Below are positions 9,744 through 15,242 of a DNA stretch of 64,000 nucleotides, in pieces (positions within the stretch are counted from its first letter, which is position 1; every line of letters begins with the position of its first letter). The stretch is taken from positions 1 through 64,000 of the forward strand of contig BJHF01000007.1 of NCBI GenBank assembly GCA_014191855.1, given 5' to 3'. The translations under genes were made by a program, and so were the position numbers. The DNA comes from Deltaproteobacteria bacterium. Its GTDB lineage: Bacteria; Myxococcota_A; UBA796; SXON01. The notes below the pieces were generated by a model. That model saw only the letters and a program-made list of their open reading frames with translations. It ran no database searches and was not told the origin of the DNA.

Positions 9744-10424
9744 TCAGGTTGCGCCCAGCCCGCCGTGCCGGAGCATCCGACCTTCGGCAAGAAATACCAC
9801 CATTTCCGCGATGTTGCAGGCGTGATCGGAGATGCGCTCCAGGTGGCGGGAGGCGGCGGCCCACGCGAGGGTGCGCTCAAGCTGGTCGGGGTGGTCCTTG
9901 GCGAGCTGGATGAGGTGGCGGAGGTGATCGTTGTGCAGGTCGTCGAGCTGGCGGTCGGCGCTGATCACGGCGCGGGCTTCGTCGCCGTTTTTCTCGGCGA
10001 GCGAGCGCATCGCGCGTTCGACGTTCGAAACGGCACCGGCGGCGAGCTGCAGCAGCTCGGGCTGCGCTTCGATGCCGGTTCCGGCGGCCAGCTCGATCGC
10101 GCGGGCGGCCACATGGCCGGCAAGATCTCCGATACGCTCCATGTCCACATCGGCCTTCAACGCCGTCATCACGAGCCGGAGGTCTTCACCGACCGGGGAG
10201 CGCCGCGCGAGCAGCGTGACGCACTCATAGTCGAGCTCCACCTCCAGGCGATTCAGCTCACGGTCCACGGCCATCACCTGGCGGGCAAGCGCGGGGTCCC
10301 GTTCGACAAGGGCTCGAACGGTGTCGCGCACCATCTGCTCCGCGCGGGCGGCCGTCCGGGCGAGTCGCGTGCGGATCGACTGGATTTCTTGTTCGTAGAT
10401 GGCGTCGAGGTGGGGCGTTTGCAT
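9744..10424 (-). CDS. phoU: PhoU, phosphate signalling/transport regulator
   Basis: A 226-residue, all-helical protein of standard PhoU length with two three-helix repeats. Metal-binding acidic motifs are visible in each half: DVDMERIGDLAGHVA near residue 90 and SRHLERISDHACNIAEMV near residue 200. It is the last gene of the pst operon, 12 bp after pstC. PhoU normally restrains the Pho two-component response through the Pst transporter. No phoB or phoR gene lies in this window. Confidence 0.95.
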   Translation of the reverse strand: MQTPHLDAIYEQEIQSIRTRLARTAARAEQMVRDTVRALVERDPALARQVMAVDRELNRLEVELDYECVTLLARRSPVGEDLRLVMTALKADVDMERIGDLAGHVAARAIELAAGTGIEAQPELLQLAAGAVSNVERAMRSLAEKNGDEARAVISADRQLDDLHNDHLRHLIQLAKDHPDQLERTLAWAAASRHLERISDHACNIAEMVVFLAEGRMLRHGGLGAT

Positions 10425-10436
10425 GAGGAGTCCAGT

Positions 10437-11336
10437 CTACTGGGTCTTTCGGGCCCGCACCGCTGCATCTGCGATGAGGTTGACGACGAAGGTGACGAAG
10501 AACAGCAGGATCCCGAGCGCGAAGAGCGCCTGATAGTGCTCCCCGCCGCGCACAGCCTCGCCGAGCTCCGCGGCGATCGTGGCGGTGAGCGTTCTGACGG
10601 GATCGTAGATTGAATGTGGGATTCGGGCGGCATGCCCCGTCACCATGAGCACCGCCATGGTCTCGCCGACGCACCGCCCCACGCCGAGGAGCACGGCCAC
10701 CAAAAGGCCCCGTCGCGCCGCCGGCAACAGCACGCGCCACACCATCTCCCACTTTGTTGCGCCCATCGCGATCGCGGCCTGGCGATAGCTCTCGGGCACG
10801 GCGCGCAGCGCGTCTTCCCCGAGGGAAACGAGCAGGGGCAGGGTCATCAACGCCAACACAATGGCGCCGTTGAGGCCGTTGAGGCCCACCGGCGCGCCTG
10901 CTTTCTGAAGGAGCGGGTTCAGGATCATCACGCCGATGAACCCCCACACCACGCTCGGGATCGCTGCGAGCAGCTCGACGACAATTTTCAAGCCTTCCCG
11001 CCGCGAATCGCCGGCGAACTCCGACAGGTACACCGCCGAGGCGAGGCCCACCGGCACCGAGATCAGGAGCGAGAGGCCGACGCACCAGAACGTGCCCACC
11101 AACAACGCGATGAGCCCGAAGGCGGGCGGCGTGCTGGTCGGGTTCCAGTCTGTGGAGCTGAGCATCCCGACGATGTGGGTGCCGAGGAAGCCGATCCCCT
11201 CCTTCCCGATGAACACGAAGATCGCCAGGATGAACACGATGGCGGAGAGCCCGCACACGCGGATCAGGCCTTCGATGACCCATTCTACGTAGCGGGTGTA
11301 GCGGGGCGGCCGCCTTCTCGCGATCGGGTCGGCCAT
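10437..11336 (-). CDS. pstC: PstC, phosphate ABC transporter permease
   Basis: 299 residues with about six transmembrane helices; the first is at ~25-45 (VCGLSAIVFILAIFVFIGKE). The permease EAA-type loop is seen in YRQAAIAMGATKWEMVWRVLLP, and VYLSEFAG is typical of PstC/PstA. It starts 3 bp after the pstS stop. It is unusual that pstA is encoded at the far (5') end of the operon, separated from pstC by pstB1, pstB2 and pstS. Confidence 0.93.
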   Translation of the reverse strand: MADPIARRRPPRYTRYVEWVIEGLIRVCGLSAIVFILAIFVFIGKEGIGFLGTHIVGMLSSTDWNPTSTPPAFGLIALLVGTFWCVGLSLLISVPVGLASAVYLSEFAGDSRREGLKIVVELLAAIPSVVWGFIGVMILNPLLQKAGAPVGLNGLNGAIVLALMTLPLLVSLGEDALRAVPESYRQAAIAMGATKWEMVWRVLLPAARRGLLVAVLLGVGRCVGETMAVLMVTGHAARIPHSIYDPVRTLTATIAAELGEAVRGGEHYQALFALGILLFFVTFVVNLIADAAVRARKTQ

Positions 11337-11339
11337 CGC

Positions 11340-12308
11340 TCAGCCCGCCGGCGTGGGGGCGGGCGGGGCGGCCTCGGGCGCCATTTCTACGGCTGCCGGC
11401 GCCGCCGGGCTCAGCCCGTTCGCTTCCGGCGTCGGCACGAAGCCGGACTCGATGACGAACGCCTTCGCCGCTGGGCCTTTCGCCCAGTCGATGAACGCTT
11501 TGGTTGCGCCGGTGGTTGCGCCGTCGGTGTACACGTACAGCGGCCGGCTGAAGGGGTAGGTGCCGTTGAGCACGTTCGCTTCGTTGGGCTCGATGCAGGC
11601 GTCAGCCGGGGATTTTCCAAGGCAGACGTGGCGCGAGGTCGGCGACGTGTAGCCCATTCCGCCGTACCCGATCGCACACTTCGTCGTGCCGACCACGTCC
11701 ACCACCTGCTGGGTGCCCGACTGGTCCATCGTGGTCGTGAACTTGCCCTCCTTGCCGAGCACGTGCTCCTTGAAGTACTCGTAGGTACCGGAGTTGTTCT
11801 GGCGGCCCACCTTCACGATGGTGTCGTCGCCCTTGCCGTCGCAGTCGAGCGTGACGCCCACGTCTTTCCAGTGCATGCAAGTGCCTTCCGACCCGAAGAT
11901 GCACTTCAGCCCGTCGAAGTCGATCTTCTCGATGGGGTTGTCCTTGTTCACGTAGATGCTCAGGCCGTCGAAGGCCACGGTGGTCTCCACCGGATCTACG
12001 CCGTTCTTCTTCGCCATCTCGATCTCGTCCGGCTTCATCGAGCGGCTCGCGGTGGCGATGTCGGTCGTCTTGTCGATGAGCGCCTTCACGCCGGTGCCGG
12101 AGCCGCCGCCGGTAACCGCGACGATGATCGCGGGGTTGGTCTTGGAGTATTCCTCCGAGAGTCGCTGGATGAGGTTCACCATGGTATCGCTGCCCTTGGC
12201 CTGGATGACCGTGGGTTTTCCGGCGACCGGCGCGTCTCCCTCTTTCGGGGCTTCAGGGCGAGCGCACGCGGAGGCGACGAGCAGGGAGGCGAGTACGAAG
12301 CGATTCAT
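11340..12308 (-). CDS. pstS: PstS, phosphate-binding lipoprotein
   Basis: 322 residues from ATG 12308, preceded by CTGGAG; an upstream in-frame start would add a charged leader before the signal. The signal peptide MNRFVLASLLVASAC ends in lipobox ASAC. Phosphate-binding motifs of the PBP-like family: IQAKGSDTMVNLIQRL, GGGSGTGVKAL, ATASRSM and GRQNNSGTYEYF. A C-terminal Ala/Pro tail (~30 residues) is extra. It delivers periplasmic phosphate to PstCA. The 79-bp gap to pstB2 is the only sizeable gap in the operon. Confidence 0.94.
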   Translation of the reverse strand: MNRFVLASLLVASACARPEAPKEGDAPVAGKPTVIQAKGSDTMVNLIQRLSEEYSKTNPAIIVAVTGGGSGTGVKALIDKTTDIATASRSMKPDEIEMAKKNGVDPVETTVAFDGLSIYVNKDNPIEKIDFDGLKCIFGSEGTCMHWKDVGVTLDCDGKGDDTIVKVGRQNNSGTYEYFKEHVLGKEGKFTTTMDQSGTQQVVDVVGTTKCAIGYGGMGYTSPTSRHVCLGKSPADACIEPNEANVLNGTYPFSRPLYVYTDGATTGATKAFIDWAKGPAAKAFVIESGFVPTPEANGLSPAAPAAVEMAPEAAPPAPTPAG

Positions 12309-12387
12309 GAAAACTCCAGAGGTTCGATCTTCTTTAGGTCGGTTTTGGTGCCGCCCAGGCTTCCGCCGCGTGCCGATTGGGTGACGC

Positions 12388-13158
12388 TCAGCCATACCGG
12401 CCCTCGATGTACCGAGCGGTGCGCTCGTCGGTGGGGTGGGTGAAGAGCTCGGCGGTCTCCCCGACCTCCACCAGCTCCCCCATGAGCATGAACACGCAGC
12501 GGTCGGAAACCCGGCGTGCTTGCTGCATGTTGTGGGTCACGCACACCTGGGTGTAGGCTTCGCGGAGGCCGCCCATGAGCTCCTCGACGGCGCGCGTGCC
12601 CTCGGGGTCGAGGGCGGAGCAGGGCTCGTCGAGGAGCAGCACCTTCGGCTTCAGCGGCAACAGGCGCGCGATGCAAAGCTTCTGGCGGGCCTCGAGGGAC
12701 AGGCTTTCGGCGTCGCGGGTGAGCTTGTCCTTGACCTCTTCCCAGAGCCGCACTTGCCGCAGCGCGGACTCCATGAGCGCCTCCTGCTGGTCGTTCGGCG
12801 TCTTGGGCGCGTGCAGGCGTAGCCCGAACAGCACGTTGTCCCGGATGGAGATTGGCAGCGGATTCGGGCGTTGAAACACCATTCCAACGTCTCGTCGCAG
12901 CGCGAGCGTATCGGTGGCCTTCCCCATGCAGTCGTAGCCCGCCACCTCCAGGTCCCCCTCGATGCGCACGTAGGGGAGGTCGTTCATCCGGTTGAAACAG
13001 CGCAACAACGTGCTTTTGCCGCAGCCTGAGGGGCCGATGAGCCCGAGGATCTCGCCGGGCTTCACGTCGAGGGTCACCCGGTCGAGGGCCCGGAAGTTGC
13101 CGTACCAGAGCGAGAGGCCGCGGGCGCGGATGGTGACATCAAGGGGTTGGGCGCTCAT
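12388..13158 (-). CDS. pstB: PstB2, phosphate ABC ATPase with degenerate signature motif
   Basis: 256 residues from ATG 13158, which overlaps the pstB1 stop (ATGA). Walker A GPSGCGKST (K49), Q-loop GMVFQRPNP (Q96), Walker B LLLDEPCSALDP (E178) and H-loop VTHNMQQA (H209) are all canonical. The ABC signature, normally LSGGQ, reads LSLEA at 153-157. It cannot therefore supply a normal signature to the opposite nucleotide site. Adjacent PstB1 has the reverse pattern, so the two probably form an asymmetric heterodimer with one consensus ATP site built from the PstB2 core and the PstB1 signature. Confidence 0.9.
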   Translation of the reverse strand: MSAQPLDVTIRARGLSLWYGNFRALDRVTLDVKPGEILGLIGPSGCGKSTLLRCFNRMNDLPYVRIEGDLEVAGYDCMGKATDTLALRRDVGMVFQRPNPLPISIRDNVLFGLRLHAPKTPNDQQEALMESALRQVRLWEEVKDKLTRDAESLSLEARQKLCIARLLPLKPKVLLLDEPCSALDPEGTRAVEELMGGLREAYTQVCVTHNMQQARRVSDRCVFMLMGELVEVGETAELFTHPTDERTARYIEGRYG

Positions 13159-13910
13159 CCGAACTTCCCCGCGAGGTAGTCGTTGGTGCGCTTGTCCCGG
13201 GCAAACACGAACAAGTCCCCAGTGGGCCCCGCTTCGATGAGCTCCCCGTTCAGCATGAACGCCGTTACGTCGGCGATGCGGCGCGCCTGCATCAACAGGT
13301 TGGTCACGAGCACGATCGTCATGCGTTCTTTCAGCTCGGTGAGCACGGCTTCGATGCGCATCGTCGTTACCGGGTCGATGGCGATGCTGAACTCGTCGAG
13401 GCAGAGCACCTCCGGGTCGGTGGAGAGCGCCCGCGCCAAGGTGAGGCGCTGCTGTTGTCCGCCGCTGAGCCGGGTTCCCAGCATGTCGAGGCGGTCCTTC
13501 ACCTCGTCCCAGAGCGCCGCCTGGGTGATGCACCGCTCCACGATCTCGTCCAGCTCTGTTTTCCGCCGCACGCCGGCGAGCCGGGGCGCGAACGCGACGT
13601 TGTCGTACACCGACATGGGCAGGCCCACCGGCAGCGGCAACACCATCGCCACGCGCCGTCGTAGGTCGCTCGCTTCAAGCGAACGGACATCCTGCCCATC
13701 CAGCCGAACGGTCCCCGTGTACGAAGCGCCCGGCGTCAGCTCGATGGTGCGGTTCAGGCACGTCAGCATCGAGCTCTTCCCCGATCCCGCAGGGCCGACG
13801 ATCCCGAGAATACCGTTTCGGGGAGCCGACAACGTCACGTTCTTCACGACTGCCCGGGGGCCGTAGCTGAGCGTGAGCCCCTCGATCTGCACGTGCGGCT
13901 CGGCTACCAT
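13155..13910 (-). CDS. pstB: PstB1, phosphate ABC ATPase with degenerate Q- and H-loops
   Basis: 251 residues from ATG 13910, overlapping the pstA stop. Walker A GPAGSGKSS (K45) and signature LSGGQQQRL (148-156) are intact, and Walker B LCLDEF keeps its Glu (E173). The Q-loop, normally VFQxPNPFP, reads VLPLPVGLP, so the Gln is Pro92. The switch His of VTHNMQQA is Asn204 (VTNLLMQA). The D-loop is SIAID. It keeps what PstB2 lacks and lacks what PstB2 keeps. A recent redundant copy is unlikely, since losses are complementary and the proteins are well diverged. Confidence 0.9.
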   Translation of the reverse strand: MVAEPHVQIEGLTLSYGPRAVVKNVTLSAPRNGILGIVGPAGSGKSSMLTCLNRTIELTPGASYTGTVRLDGQDVRSLEASDLRRRVAMVLPLPVGLPMSVYDNVAFAPRLAGVRRKTELDEIVERCITQAALWDEVKDRLDMLGTRLSGGQQQRLTLARALSTDPEVLCLDEFSIAIDPVTTMRIEAVLTELKERMTIVLVTNLLMQARRIADVTAFMLNGELIEAGPTGDLFVFARDKRTNDYLAGKFG

Positions 13911-14785
13911 CGCCGGTTCCGGCGCAAGTAGAGGCGCAACACGATGGCGAAGCTGTTGAAGCAGAGGACGACGCCCAGCAAGACGAGGGCCGTGCCGTAC
14001 TTCAGCTCCTCGCTCACATTCGGCACCTGGGTAACGAGCGCGAACACGTGCATGGAGAGCGCCATCGTCTGGTCCCACACGGTCGTGGGCAGGATCGGCA
14101 GGTAGAAGGCGGCTCCCGTGAACAGGACCGGCGCCGTTTCCCCCGCGGCCCGGCTCACCTGGAGGATCACGCCGGTGAGGATGCCCGGCAGCGCGTTCGG
14201 CAGCACCACATGCCAGATGGTTTGCCACCGCGAGGCGCCGAGGTTCCAACAGGCCACGCGGAAGTTGTGAGGCACAGACTGCATCGCCGCCTTGGTGGAG
14301 GTGATGATCACCGGCAGGGTCATCACCCCGAGCGTGAGGCCGCCGCTGAGAATGCTGGTGCCGAAGTCGAGAAACAGCACGAATGCGCCGAGGCCGAACA
14401 GCGCGTGAACAATCGAGGGCACGCCCGCGAGGTTCACGATGGCGAGATCGACAATGCGGGAGAGGCGGCTCTCCCCGGCGTACTCCGACAGGTACATCCC
14501 CGCGAGGATGCCGACGGGCACAGAGAACAGGAGCGACACGCCCACCAGCCACAGGGTGCCGACGATGGCGGGCTGGATGCCGCCTTTGGTCATGCCGGAG
14601 ACGGGCATCTCGGTCAGGAACGCCCAGGAGATCGCAGGGGCCCCTTTATAGACGATGAACGCCACGATCGCGAGCGCAGGGATCGCAGCGAGGGCGGTCG
14701 CAGCCGCCAAGGCAAGCTCGACAACCGACTGGCGGCGGTGGCGAGCCTCCAGCGGCTCGATCGGAAGGGCGGCGTCCGTTGGCAT
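13904..14785 (-). CDS. pstA: PstA, phosphate ABC transporter permease
   Basis: 293 residues from ATG 14785 (MPTDAALPIEP); a longer frame exists but the Pho box and -10 lie just upstream of this ATG. About six transmembrane helices; motifs GMYLSEYAGESRLSRIVDLA and WNLGASRWQTIWHVVLPNAL (EAA loop) are typical. It is the first gene of the pst operon, which is the reverse of the common pstS-first order. Its stop overlaps the pstB1 start. Confidence 0.93.
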   Translation of the reverse strand: MPTDAALPIEPLEARHRRQSVVELALAAATALAAIPALAIVAFIVYKGAPAISWAFLTEMPVSGMTKGGIQPAIVGTLWLVGVSLLFSVPVGILAGMYLSEYAGESRLSRIVDLAIVNLAGVPSIVHALFGLGAFVLFLDFGTSILSGGLTLGVMTLPVIITSTKAAMQSVPHNFRVACWNLGASRWQTIWHVVLPNALPGILTGVILQVSRAAGETAPVLFTGAAFYLPILPTTVWDQTMALSMHVFALVTQVPNVSEELKYGTALVLLGVVLCFNSFAIVLRLYLRRNRRW

Positions 14786-14795
14786 CGGTACCGCC

Positions 14796-14851
14796 CATGT
14801 AGGCGCGTTGTGTGACGGTCGGGTGACAGTGCAGGCAGCGTTTGGTGACGG
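14796..14851 (-). promoter_or_regulatory. Pho-box array and -10 of the pst operon
   Basis: On the minus strand three PhoB-like heptamers fall on one 11-bp phase: CCGTCAC (14851-14845), CTGTCAC (14829-14823) and CCGTCAC (14818-14812). The position between the first two, CGCTGCC, is degenerate. The last pair is separated by 4 bp, as in the standard Pho box. TACATG (14801-14796) lies 10 bp downstream as a -10 candidate, and the pstA ATG follows at 14785, leaving a very short leader. This predicts phosphate-starvation induction. Confidence 0.75.
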
Positions 14852-14891
14852 GCCCCGGTGGGAGCCCGCCACAACGCGGCTGGAGGCGGCC

Positions 14892-15242
14892 CTACCCTCC
14901 CAACCGTCGCAACCCCAGCGCGACGAGCAAGCTCTGCGCAATCAGCAATCCGCTGGCCAGAACGATCGGCGTGAGCGACTCTCCGACGCCTTGGAGCACG
15001 ATCATTCCTAGGCCGTTCTCGGCCACCCACTCGGGGTGCTCCGGCACGTGTACGGACACCGCGATCAGGTCGACCGCCATTCCCCCGACGCCCGCGAGGG
15101 CCACGGCTACGCCCAGCGCCGCGAGGTAGCCCACCCGACCGGGGCCCGGCGCCCAGGCGAAACGCGCCGCGTTCACGATGCCCACCAGCCCGAACACGAC
15201 GATGACGATCATCGGAAATCCACCCATTGCGAACCATTCCAT
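14892..15242 (-). CDS. small polytopic membrane protein, possibly MotA/TolQ/ExbB-like
   Basis: 116 residues from ATG 15242, with GGAGG 6 bp upstream; a longer in-frame start lacks such a site. About three hydrophobic segments: FPMIVIVVFGLVGIVNAARFAW, YLAALGVAVALAGVGGM and IVLASGLLIAQSLLVALGL. The start MEWFAMGGFPMI and segment layout recall myxobacterial MotA/TolQ/ExbB-type small proteins, but no diagnostic proton-channel residues are certain. It lies upstream of the pst operon on the same strand and is divergent from the ECF sigma gene. Confidence 0.7.
   Translation of the reverse strand: MEWFAMGGFPMIVIVVFGLVGIVNAARFAWAPGPGRVGYLAALGVAVALAGVGGMAVDLIAVSVHVPEHPEWVAENGLGMIVLQGVGESLTPIVLASGLLIAQSLLVALGLRRLGG

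Follow-up and report, generated by a model that had tools for sequence, protein, structure and literature searches.

PstB is usually described as a symmetric homodimer, and the solved PstB chains 9k3x, 9k3y, and 9k3s come as two chains per entry. How, then, is the ATPase of a Pst system built when two adjacent pstB genes each encode a protein short of part of the catalytic machinery? The question is raised by a pst operon in the window, the whole 64,000-nucleotide stretch of DNA analyzed here, which is part of contig C7 of a draft genome (6.9 Mb, 92.94% complete). The genes lie compactly on the minus strand in the order pstA-B1-B2-pstS-pstC-phoU. PstA (permease; 13904..14941; TIGR00974, 263.5 bits against a cut-off of 193.45), PstS (phosphate-binding protein; 11340..12395; TIGR02136, 217.4 against 206.6), PstC (permease; 10437..11336; TIGR02138, 270.9 against 196.45), and PhoU (9744..10424; TIGR02135, 179.7 against 130.25) are encoded together and all exceed their NCBIfam cut-offs. 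The longest open reading frame of pstA begins at TTG, and an internal ATG near 14785 is the likelier start; the pstS start is probably an internal Met ahead of a lipoprotein signal. The best solved chain for PstS is 4omb, a phosphate-binding protein (E 1.7e-42), and from this resemblance the operon is predicted to encode a Pst-type importer whose substrate is inorganic phosphate. Between pstA and pstS lie pstB1 (13155..13910; 251 aa) and pstB2 (12388..13158; 256 aa), both encoding PstB-type ATPases. The pstA and pstB1 genes overlap by 7 bases at the pstB1 start, and pstB1 and pstB2 overlap by ATGA within one operon, exactly at the coordinates and on the strand given in the preliminary description. 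TIGR00972 is the best model for both ATPases, yet their scores (279.6 bits for PstB1 and 303 bits for PstB2) fall below its equivalog cut-off of 343.2.

Walker A Lys and Walker B Glu are present in both proteins, in PstB1 as GPAGSGKSS (Lys45) and DEFSIAIDP (Glu173) and in PstB2 as GPSGCGKST (Lys48) and DEP (Glu178). PstB1 also retains an intact LSGGQ signature (residues 148-152; 13455-13469, minus strand), but its Q-loop Gln is replaced by Pro92 (13635-13637, minus; context AMVLPLPVGLP) and its switch His by Asn204 (13299-13301, minus; context VTNL). PstB2 shows the converse, with Gln96 (12871-12873, minus; context GMVFQRP) and His209 (12532-12534, minus; context VTHN) kept and the signature altered to LSLEA (residues 153-157; 12688-12702, minus). 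Each protein aligns end to end with solved PstB, and the alignment to chain 9k3x shows the same substitutions, with SLE in PstB2 where PstB has SGG; the residues and numbering reported earlier for both proteins were reproduced exactly. No single chain therefore carries Walker A, the Q-loop Gln, LSGGQ, the Walker B Glu, and the switch His, and the set is complete only in the two proteins jointly. An AlphaFold2 model of PstB1 (50 sequences) has a complete ABC ATPase fold with a mean pLDDT of 93.2, dipping at residues 91-100 (77, Q-loop), residues 171-180 (80, Walker B/D-loop), and the last residue (57). Frameshift or artefact in either gene had been named as a possible undoing of the idea; both genes were checked and neither contains a frameshift or a stop. 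In ABC dimers, each ATP lies between the Walker A/B motifs and Q- and H-loops of one subunit and the signature of the other, as described in PMC7756269. This geometry would make a consensus site from the PstB2 core and the PstB1 signature, leaving the PstB1 core, without its Gln and His, to face an acidic residue.

The distribution of the pair was first considered close to home. The 22 genomes of the family, 11 of them from the genus of the window genome, were searched with PstB1. It was found at 75-100% identity in 8 of the 11 genus genomes, with PstB2 adjoining in each, and the motif losses are common to all eight. The PstB2 of one of them (locus L035, genome G013) also lacks the switch His (VTNN), the sole such PstB2 among the 100 pairs described below. 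The pair provides the only PstB1 matches at E<=1e-30 in five of the eight (G012, G016, G017, G019, and G020), and the other three (G013, G015, and the window genome) encode an additional PstB with intact motifs. That of the window genome (G000:C16:41612-42352) belongs to a second pst operon, on contig C16, with its own PstS, PstC, and PstA. Matches in eight genomes from other genera of the family carry intact motifs. For six of the eight genus genomes, dN was 0.04-0.22 and dS 0.55-1.05 for both genes, so neither gene looks to be decaying. Frameshift or pseudogene formation was ruled out by the open frames, by dN below dS, and by conservation across phyla, and a genus-specific oddity was ruled out by the occurrence of the same pairs in many phyla. 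As a separate observation, the PstB1 Walker A of loci L016 (G019) and L124 (G046) reads GPAGSAKT, with the Gly before the Lys changed to Ala; the degenerate site may be drifting further in these two genomes.

Contigs of species-representative genomes were scanned with a profile of eight PstB1 sequences. Among the best 80 of 587 relatives, a set from which near relatives may be missing, 18 were of the PstB1 type (56-62% identity) and the other 62 showed at most 49% identity. The 18 belong to Acidobacteriota (4), Planctomycetota (4), Verrucomicrobiota (3), Pseudomonadota (2), and Poribacteria, Bdellovibrionota, Binatota, and Nitrospirota (1 each), with one unplaced. These sequences and the window genes are referred to as alpha; a second class, beta, was found in Elusimicrobiota and Aminicenantes (L060, L071, L072, and L074, among the same best 80 of 587). 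Both names were coined in this analysis. In beta pairs, PstB1 has Ala for the Q-loop Gln and VTNN at the switch, and PstB2 has LSLEQ or LTGEQ as its signature. A complete adjacent PstB2 accompanies PstB1 in 16 of the 18 alpha relatives; in the other two, the contig breaks off within PstB2 (L046) or at PstB1 (L040). Such pairs were assigned to nine phyla plus Aminicenantes, with four of the alpha phyla represented by one MAG each and most relatives being MAGs. The beta partners score about 330-395 bits on TIGR00972. None of the alpha PstB1 and PstB2 scored here exceeds 328 bits, and annotation that relies on the 343.2 cut-off would therefore not name them PstB.

Individual clades were searched as well, with counts that include the genome at the centre of each search. 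Alpha scores form a separate group, as in the class of the window genome, where a gap separates 343 from 251 bits and alpha PstB1 occurs in 22 of 71 genomes. In the phylum of the window genome, 23 of 282 genomes have alpha PstB1, and canonical PstB accounts for three further matches (291-299 bits). Alpha PstB1 occurs in 20 of 199 genomes (truncated in one of them) of the phylum of the planctomycete G308, with four beta sequences among the 30 retrieved loci; in 4 of 194 genomes of the phylum of the verrucomicrobial G296, with seven beta above threshold; and in 5 of 274 genomes of the class of the Accumulibacter genome G312. Beta PstB1 was found in at least 32 of 79 genomes of the phylum of G318 (Elusimicrobiota), comprising 30 retrieved loci plus G1020 and G985. 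The PstB pair thus reaches far beyond the window genome and beyond any single group. A different arrangement, tandem PstBs of which both are intact, was also encountered (L080, L091, L095, and L113). Two other variants were seen. In Poribacteria, a third PstB-like gene (L037:7477-8274) lies between the pair and phoU and has all three sites altered (Q-loop Arg, LSIGQ, ATNK). In L137 and L140 (G026 and G025, genomes of the order to which the window belongs), a PstB with a Q-loop Ala, an LTTG or LGPG signature, and a retained His adjoins phoU, with no partner seen within the short stretch examined.

The pattern of losses was tabulated for 320 unique full-length PstB-like sequences taken from the retrieved loci. 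Walker A Lys and Walker B Glu are present in all 320. SGG is present without the Gln and His in 113 of these sequences, and the Gln and His without SGG in 103; 99 are intact and 5 show other combinations, a distribution beyond what chance would give. Retrieval was mostly with PstB1 and PstB2 profiles, so the class sizes are not prevalences. The 113 PstB1-type sequences are made up of 69 alpha (Pro) and 44 beta (Ala), and three of the 103 lacking SGG (L067, L187, and L189) are not of the PstB2 type. A complete PstB2 lies directly downstream on the same strand for 100 of the 113 PstB1 (99 distinct PstB2), with a median of 29 bases (range 2-754) between domain ends. Across these 100 pairs, without exception, PstB1 lacks the Q-loop Gln and has Asn at the switch position, PstB2 retains the Gln and has Glu or Asp in place of the second signature Gly, and both partners carry the catalytic Glu; complementarity of the switch His holds in 99. 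No pair with one intact PstB, which would have spoken against the original idea, was seen among the 100. The specific, fixed nature of these replacements suggests selection rather than decay. PstB1 keeps SGG in 113 of 113 sequences, and nine columns set it apart from the 99 canonical PstB. Seven of these fall in Walker A (Ser41 to Ala, in 102; Cys43), the Q-loop (Gln92 to Pro or Ala, in 113; Asn95; Phe97 to Leu, in 113), and the H-loop (His204 to Asn, in 113; Met206), and the remaining two are columns 36 and 189. PstB2 is separated by four columns: 136, 137, and the signature glycines at 155 and 156.

The two genes are also found together at the level of genomes. A PstB2 profile gave 23 matches above 400 bits in the window's phylum (282 genomes), the next best reaching 347. 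PstB1 was found in 23 genomes, PstB2 in 23, and both in 22, so that 22 of the 24 genomes with either have both. The two single-gene exceptions are at contig ends (G285, where PstB1 is cut, and G027, where PstB2 begins there). Among the 113 PstB1, 13 have no complete adjacent PstB2 (3 with an adjacent PstB2 that is cut off and 10 with none in the retrieved stretch), and these comprise six at or near contig ends (L040, L046, L122, L197, L203, and L223) and seven Elusimicrobiota. The sequence stops at or within about 460 bases of PstB1 in L040, L122 (G028), and L223 (G462). PstB2 of G028 is at the end of another contig, and a PstB2 partner for L223 was looked for in G462 and not found. True unlinking in G028 and an orphan PstB2 in G027 were ruled out, both being contig ends. 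In the seven Elusimicrobiota with non-neighboring genes, PstB2 is encoded elsewhere in every case: G1031 has it on the PstB1 contig at a distance of about 15 kb, G1004 has it about 3 kb away, and G1043, G1037, G1051, G989, and G319 have it on another contig. PstB1 follows pstC-pstA in six of the seven and PstB2 lies beside phoU in six of the seven.

The pair provides the only PstB matches in 14 relatives, 5 alpha and 9 beta. The alpha genomes are 5 of the 18 (G301, G304, G309, G310, and G311, at E<=1e-55), the other 13 having further or ambiguous PstB matches; the beta genomes are G315 and G318 (E<=1e-55) and G1051, G1043, G1037, G1031, G1054, G1020, and G985 (E<=1e-60). These absences are provisional, most relatives being MAGs that may be incomplete. 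If they are real, only a PstB1-PstB2 dimer could provide a complete ATP site in these genomes.

A tree of 113 sequences was made by a quick search with the motif columns removed. The 36 PstB1 sequences fall on one side of a branch with an SH-aLRT of 93, and support was 100 for alpha PstB1, 98 for alpha PstB2, and 90 for beta PstB2. The quick tree left alpha and beta PstB2 apart, with 53 of 110 inner branches weak; a constraint uniting PstB2 raised the likelihood by 55.8 (p-AU 0.96). The Olsenella pair (L091) and one further intact PstB sit near alpha PstB2, on long branches and with moderate support. The distances separating PstB1 sequences correlate with those separating their PstB2 partners (0.73 for 22 alpha pairs and 0.78 for 14 beta pairs), and none of 2000 permutations gave a value as high. 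One ancient split followed by joint inheritance would be the simplest account, and transfer between phyla may also be compatible with this history. Separate origins of alpha and beta were considered and are not needed, given that PstB1 forms one side of a branch and a single PstB2 clade is not rejected, with moderate support. Beside the PstB1 clade in the tree are PstB relatives from Anaerolineae (L056; Q-loop Ala, VIFPHS) and Methanophagales (L067; LSAGQ, GMLAQKP), which are possible intermediates.

The remaining genes were compared in 23 loci (18 alpha, four beta, and L056), several of them cut by contig ends. All 23 contain one pstC and one pstA, and PstB1 follows pstA in each. PstB2, complete or cut, is present in 20 (absent from L040, L056, and L074), PstS in 21, and PhoU in 15; the commonest order in relatives is pstS-(phoU)-pstC-pstA-B1-B2. 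The permeases carry residues particular to the class. His-Ala occupies positions 179-180 of alpha PstA in 62 of 62 sequences, the second of these positions being Gly in 46 of 46 canonical sequences, and position 232, which lies in the coupling-helix region, is Trp in 60 of the 62. In alpha PstC, a Trp (29 of 29) stands where Tyr is found in 21 of 27 canonical sequences, and a His (29 of 29) where Asn is found in 18 of 27. Among the 7 alpha PstA and 54 PstC caught by a pattern search, the coupling-helix region of PstA reads like EASWNLGA, and that of PstC has the usual EAA-A-(L/M)GA. The altered coupling-helix region of PstA, taken with the altered Q-loop of PstB1, suggests that PstB1 docks on PstA. 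The PstA His-Ala and the PstC Trp occupy corresponding PS-(I/V)-V motifs of alpha operons and are perhaps near the phosphate path.

Collectively, the 100 pairs, the correlated trees, the co-occurrence of the genes even where they are separated, and the genomes with no other PstB give strong comparative support to the heterodimer proposed in the preliminary description, and PstB1 and PstB2 very probably form an obligate heterodimer in which one ATP site is consensus and the other degenerate. Such a dimer would sit under one PstC-PstA pore, with PstB1 seated on PstA. The Walker A, Walker B, Gln96, and His209 core of PstB2 and the LSGGQ of PstB1 would make up the consensus, hydrolyzing site. The degenerate site would be formed by the PstB1 Walker A, with Lys and Glu kept and Gln and His lost, and the L-S-x-Glu of PstB2; it probably holds nucleotide without normal turnover and may act as a hinge or in regulation, leaving one hydrolysis per cycle. 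Neither homodimer would hold a complete site. The second site may still have some activity, since both partners retain the catalytic Glu; Glu173 of PstB1 is the main argument against that site being wholly dead.

That residue is the starting point for a neighboring reading, in which the heterodimer forms and both sites hydrolyze, Glu173 being active and the acidic signature tuned rather than dead. The invariance of the catalytic Glu in both partners of the 100 pairs, and of Walker A Lys and Walker B Glu in all 320 sequences, is what such a dimer would predict. The same PstB1 site, however, has lost the Gln and His that contact Mg and the gamma-phosphate, and an acid faces the phosphate there; the comparable LNVEQ site of Pdr5 is classed as degenerate in PMC7756269, though more residues are lost in it. 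Hydrolysis at both sites is accordingly considered unlikely. It is also quite unlikely that a PstB2 homodimer is the motor, with LS-x-E an adequate signature and PstB1 a regulatory or PhoU-signaling paralogue outside the translocation complex. PstB2 does keep every core catalytic residue, and in the E. faecalis tandem, as reported in PMC12096839, one PstB is required and the other is accessory, the two being partly separable. Yet SGG would be needless in a PstB1 of this kind and is kept in every one of the 113; the acidic signature residue is fixed in PstB2 across the 100 pairs; and in six of the seven Elusimicrobiota with separated genes it is PstB1 that stays with pstC-pstA, and PstB2 that lies beside phoU.

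Duplication followed by loss is common, and the genes could in principle be redundant duplicates decaying by drift, a history that the extra changes in the G013 PstB2 and in the PstB1 Walker A of G019 and G046 would fit. Against this stand the identical losses across phyla, a dN well below dS, the absence of the wrong Gln/signature combination from all 100 pairs, and the several genomes with no other PstB match; decay of this kind is extremely improbable.

Relative to the single-PstB PstSCAB-PhoU system, the operon has the same subunits, and PstB1 and PstB2 align end to end; it differs in having two PstB genes with complementary, fixed losses and class-specific fixed residues in PstA and PstC. 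Tandem pstB genes of Firmicutes (E. faecalis and B. subtilis) are likewise adjacent in one pst operon, and PstBA and PstBB of B. subtilis have been modeled in one complex (PMC11466899). In E. faecalis, however, the motifs are intact in both copies (PMC12096839), whereas neither copy of the window pair is complete. According to PMC12096839, no study comparing tandem pstB paralogs had previously been published, and in the open-licence PMC literature on asymmetric, heterodimeric, or tandem PstB and on degenerate importer sites, no account of complementary motif loss in PstB was found.

Exporters with one degenerate site include TAP, MRP1, and CFTR (PMC7756269) and TM287/288 (PMC5216877), and the preliminary description likened the PstB pair to such proteins. 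The likeness extends to the combination of consensus and degenerate composite sites, to the loss of the signature on the partner with the intact core, and to the complementarity of the losses (Gln and signature in 100 of 100 pairs, His in 99 of 100). It does not extend to the catalytic Glu, whose replacement is a frequent but not universal trait of degenerate sites and is absent from both partners in all 100 pairs, nor to the loss of the Q-loop Gln; moreover, the Pst system is an importer, with permeases and ATPases as separate proteins. Pdr5, with its LNVEQ, likewise has an acid for the second Gly of the signature in its degenerate site, but Pdr5 is an exporter and that site has also lost its switch His and the Lys and Glu of Walker A and Walker B (PMC7756269). 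RbsA and NupO are importers with one degenerate ATP site, but they are Type II importers with two ATPase domains per chain, and it is the Walker A Lys that is lost (PMC11466899).

A fuller picture can be sketched from the same sequence comparisons, though it is rather doubtful as a whole: an anciently split Pst class would run on a single hydrolyzing site at one ATP per phosphate, with the PstB1 site serving as a nucleotide-occupied sensor that tunes transport or PhoU signaling, and with PstA and PstC co-specialized so that each ATPase has a fixed seat. The symmetric picture of PstB underlies models of both phosphate uptake and PhoU signaling. A class present in many phyla whose two PstBs are each incomplete offers a natural experiment on one versus two ATP sites, on the ATP cost per substrate, and on the purpose of a degenerate site, and because its subunits are small and separate, the motifs can be tested one by one. 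For annotation, "two PstB genes" can mean one split motor and not redundancy.
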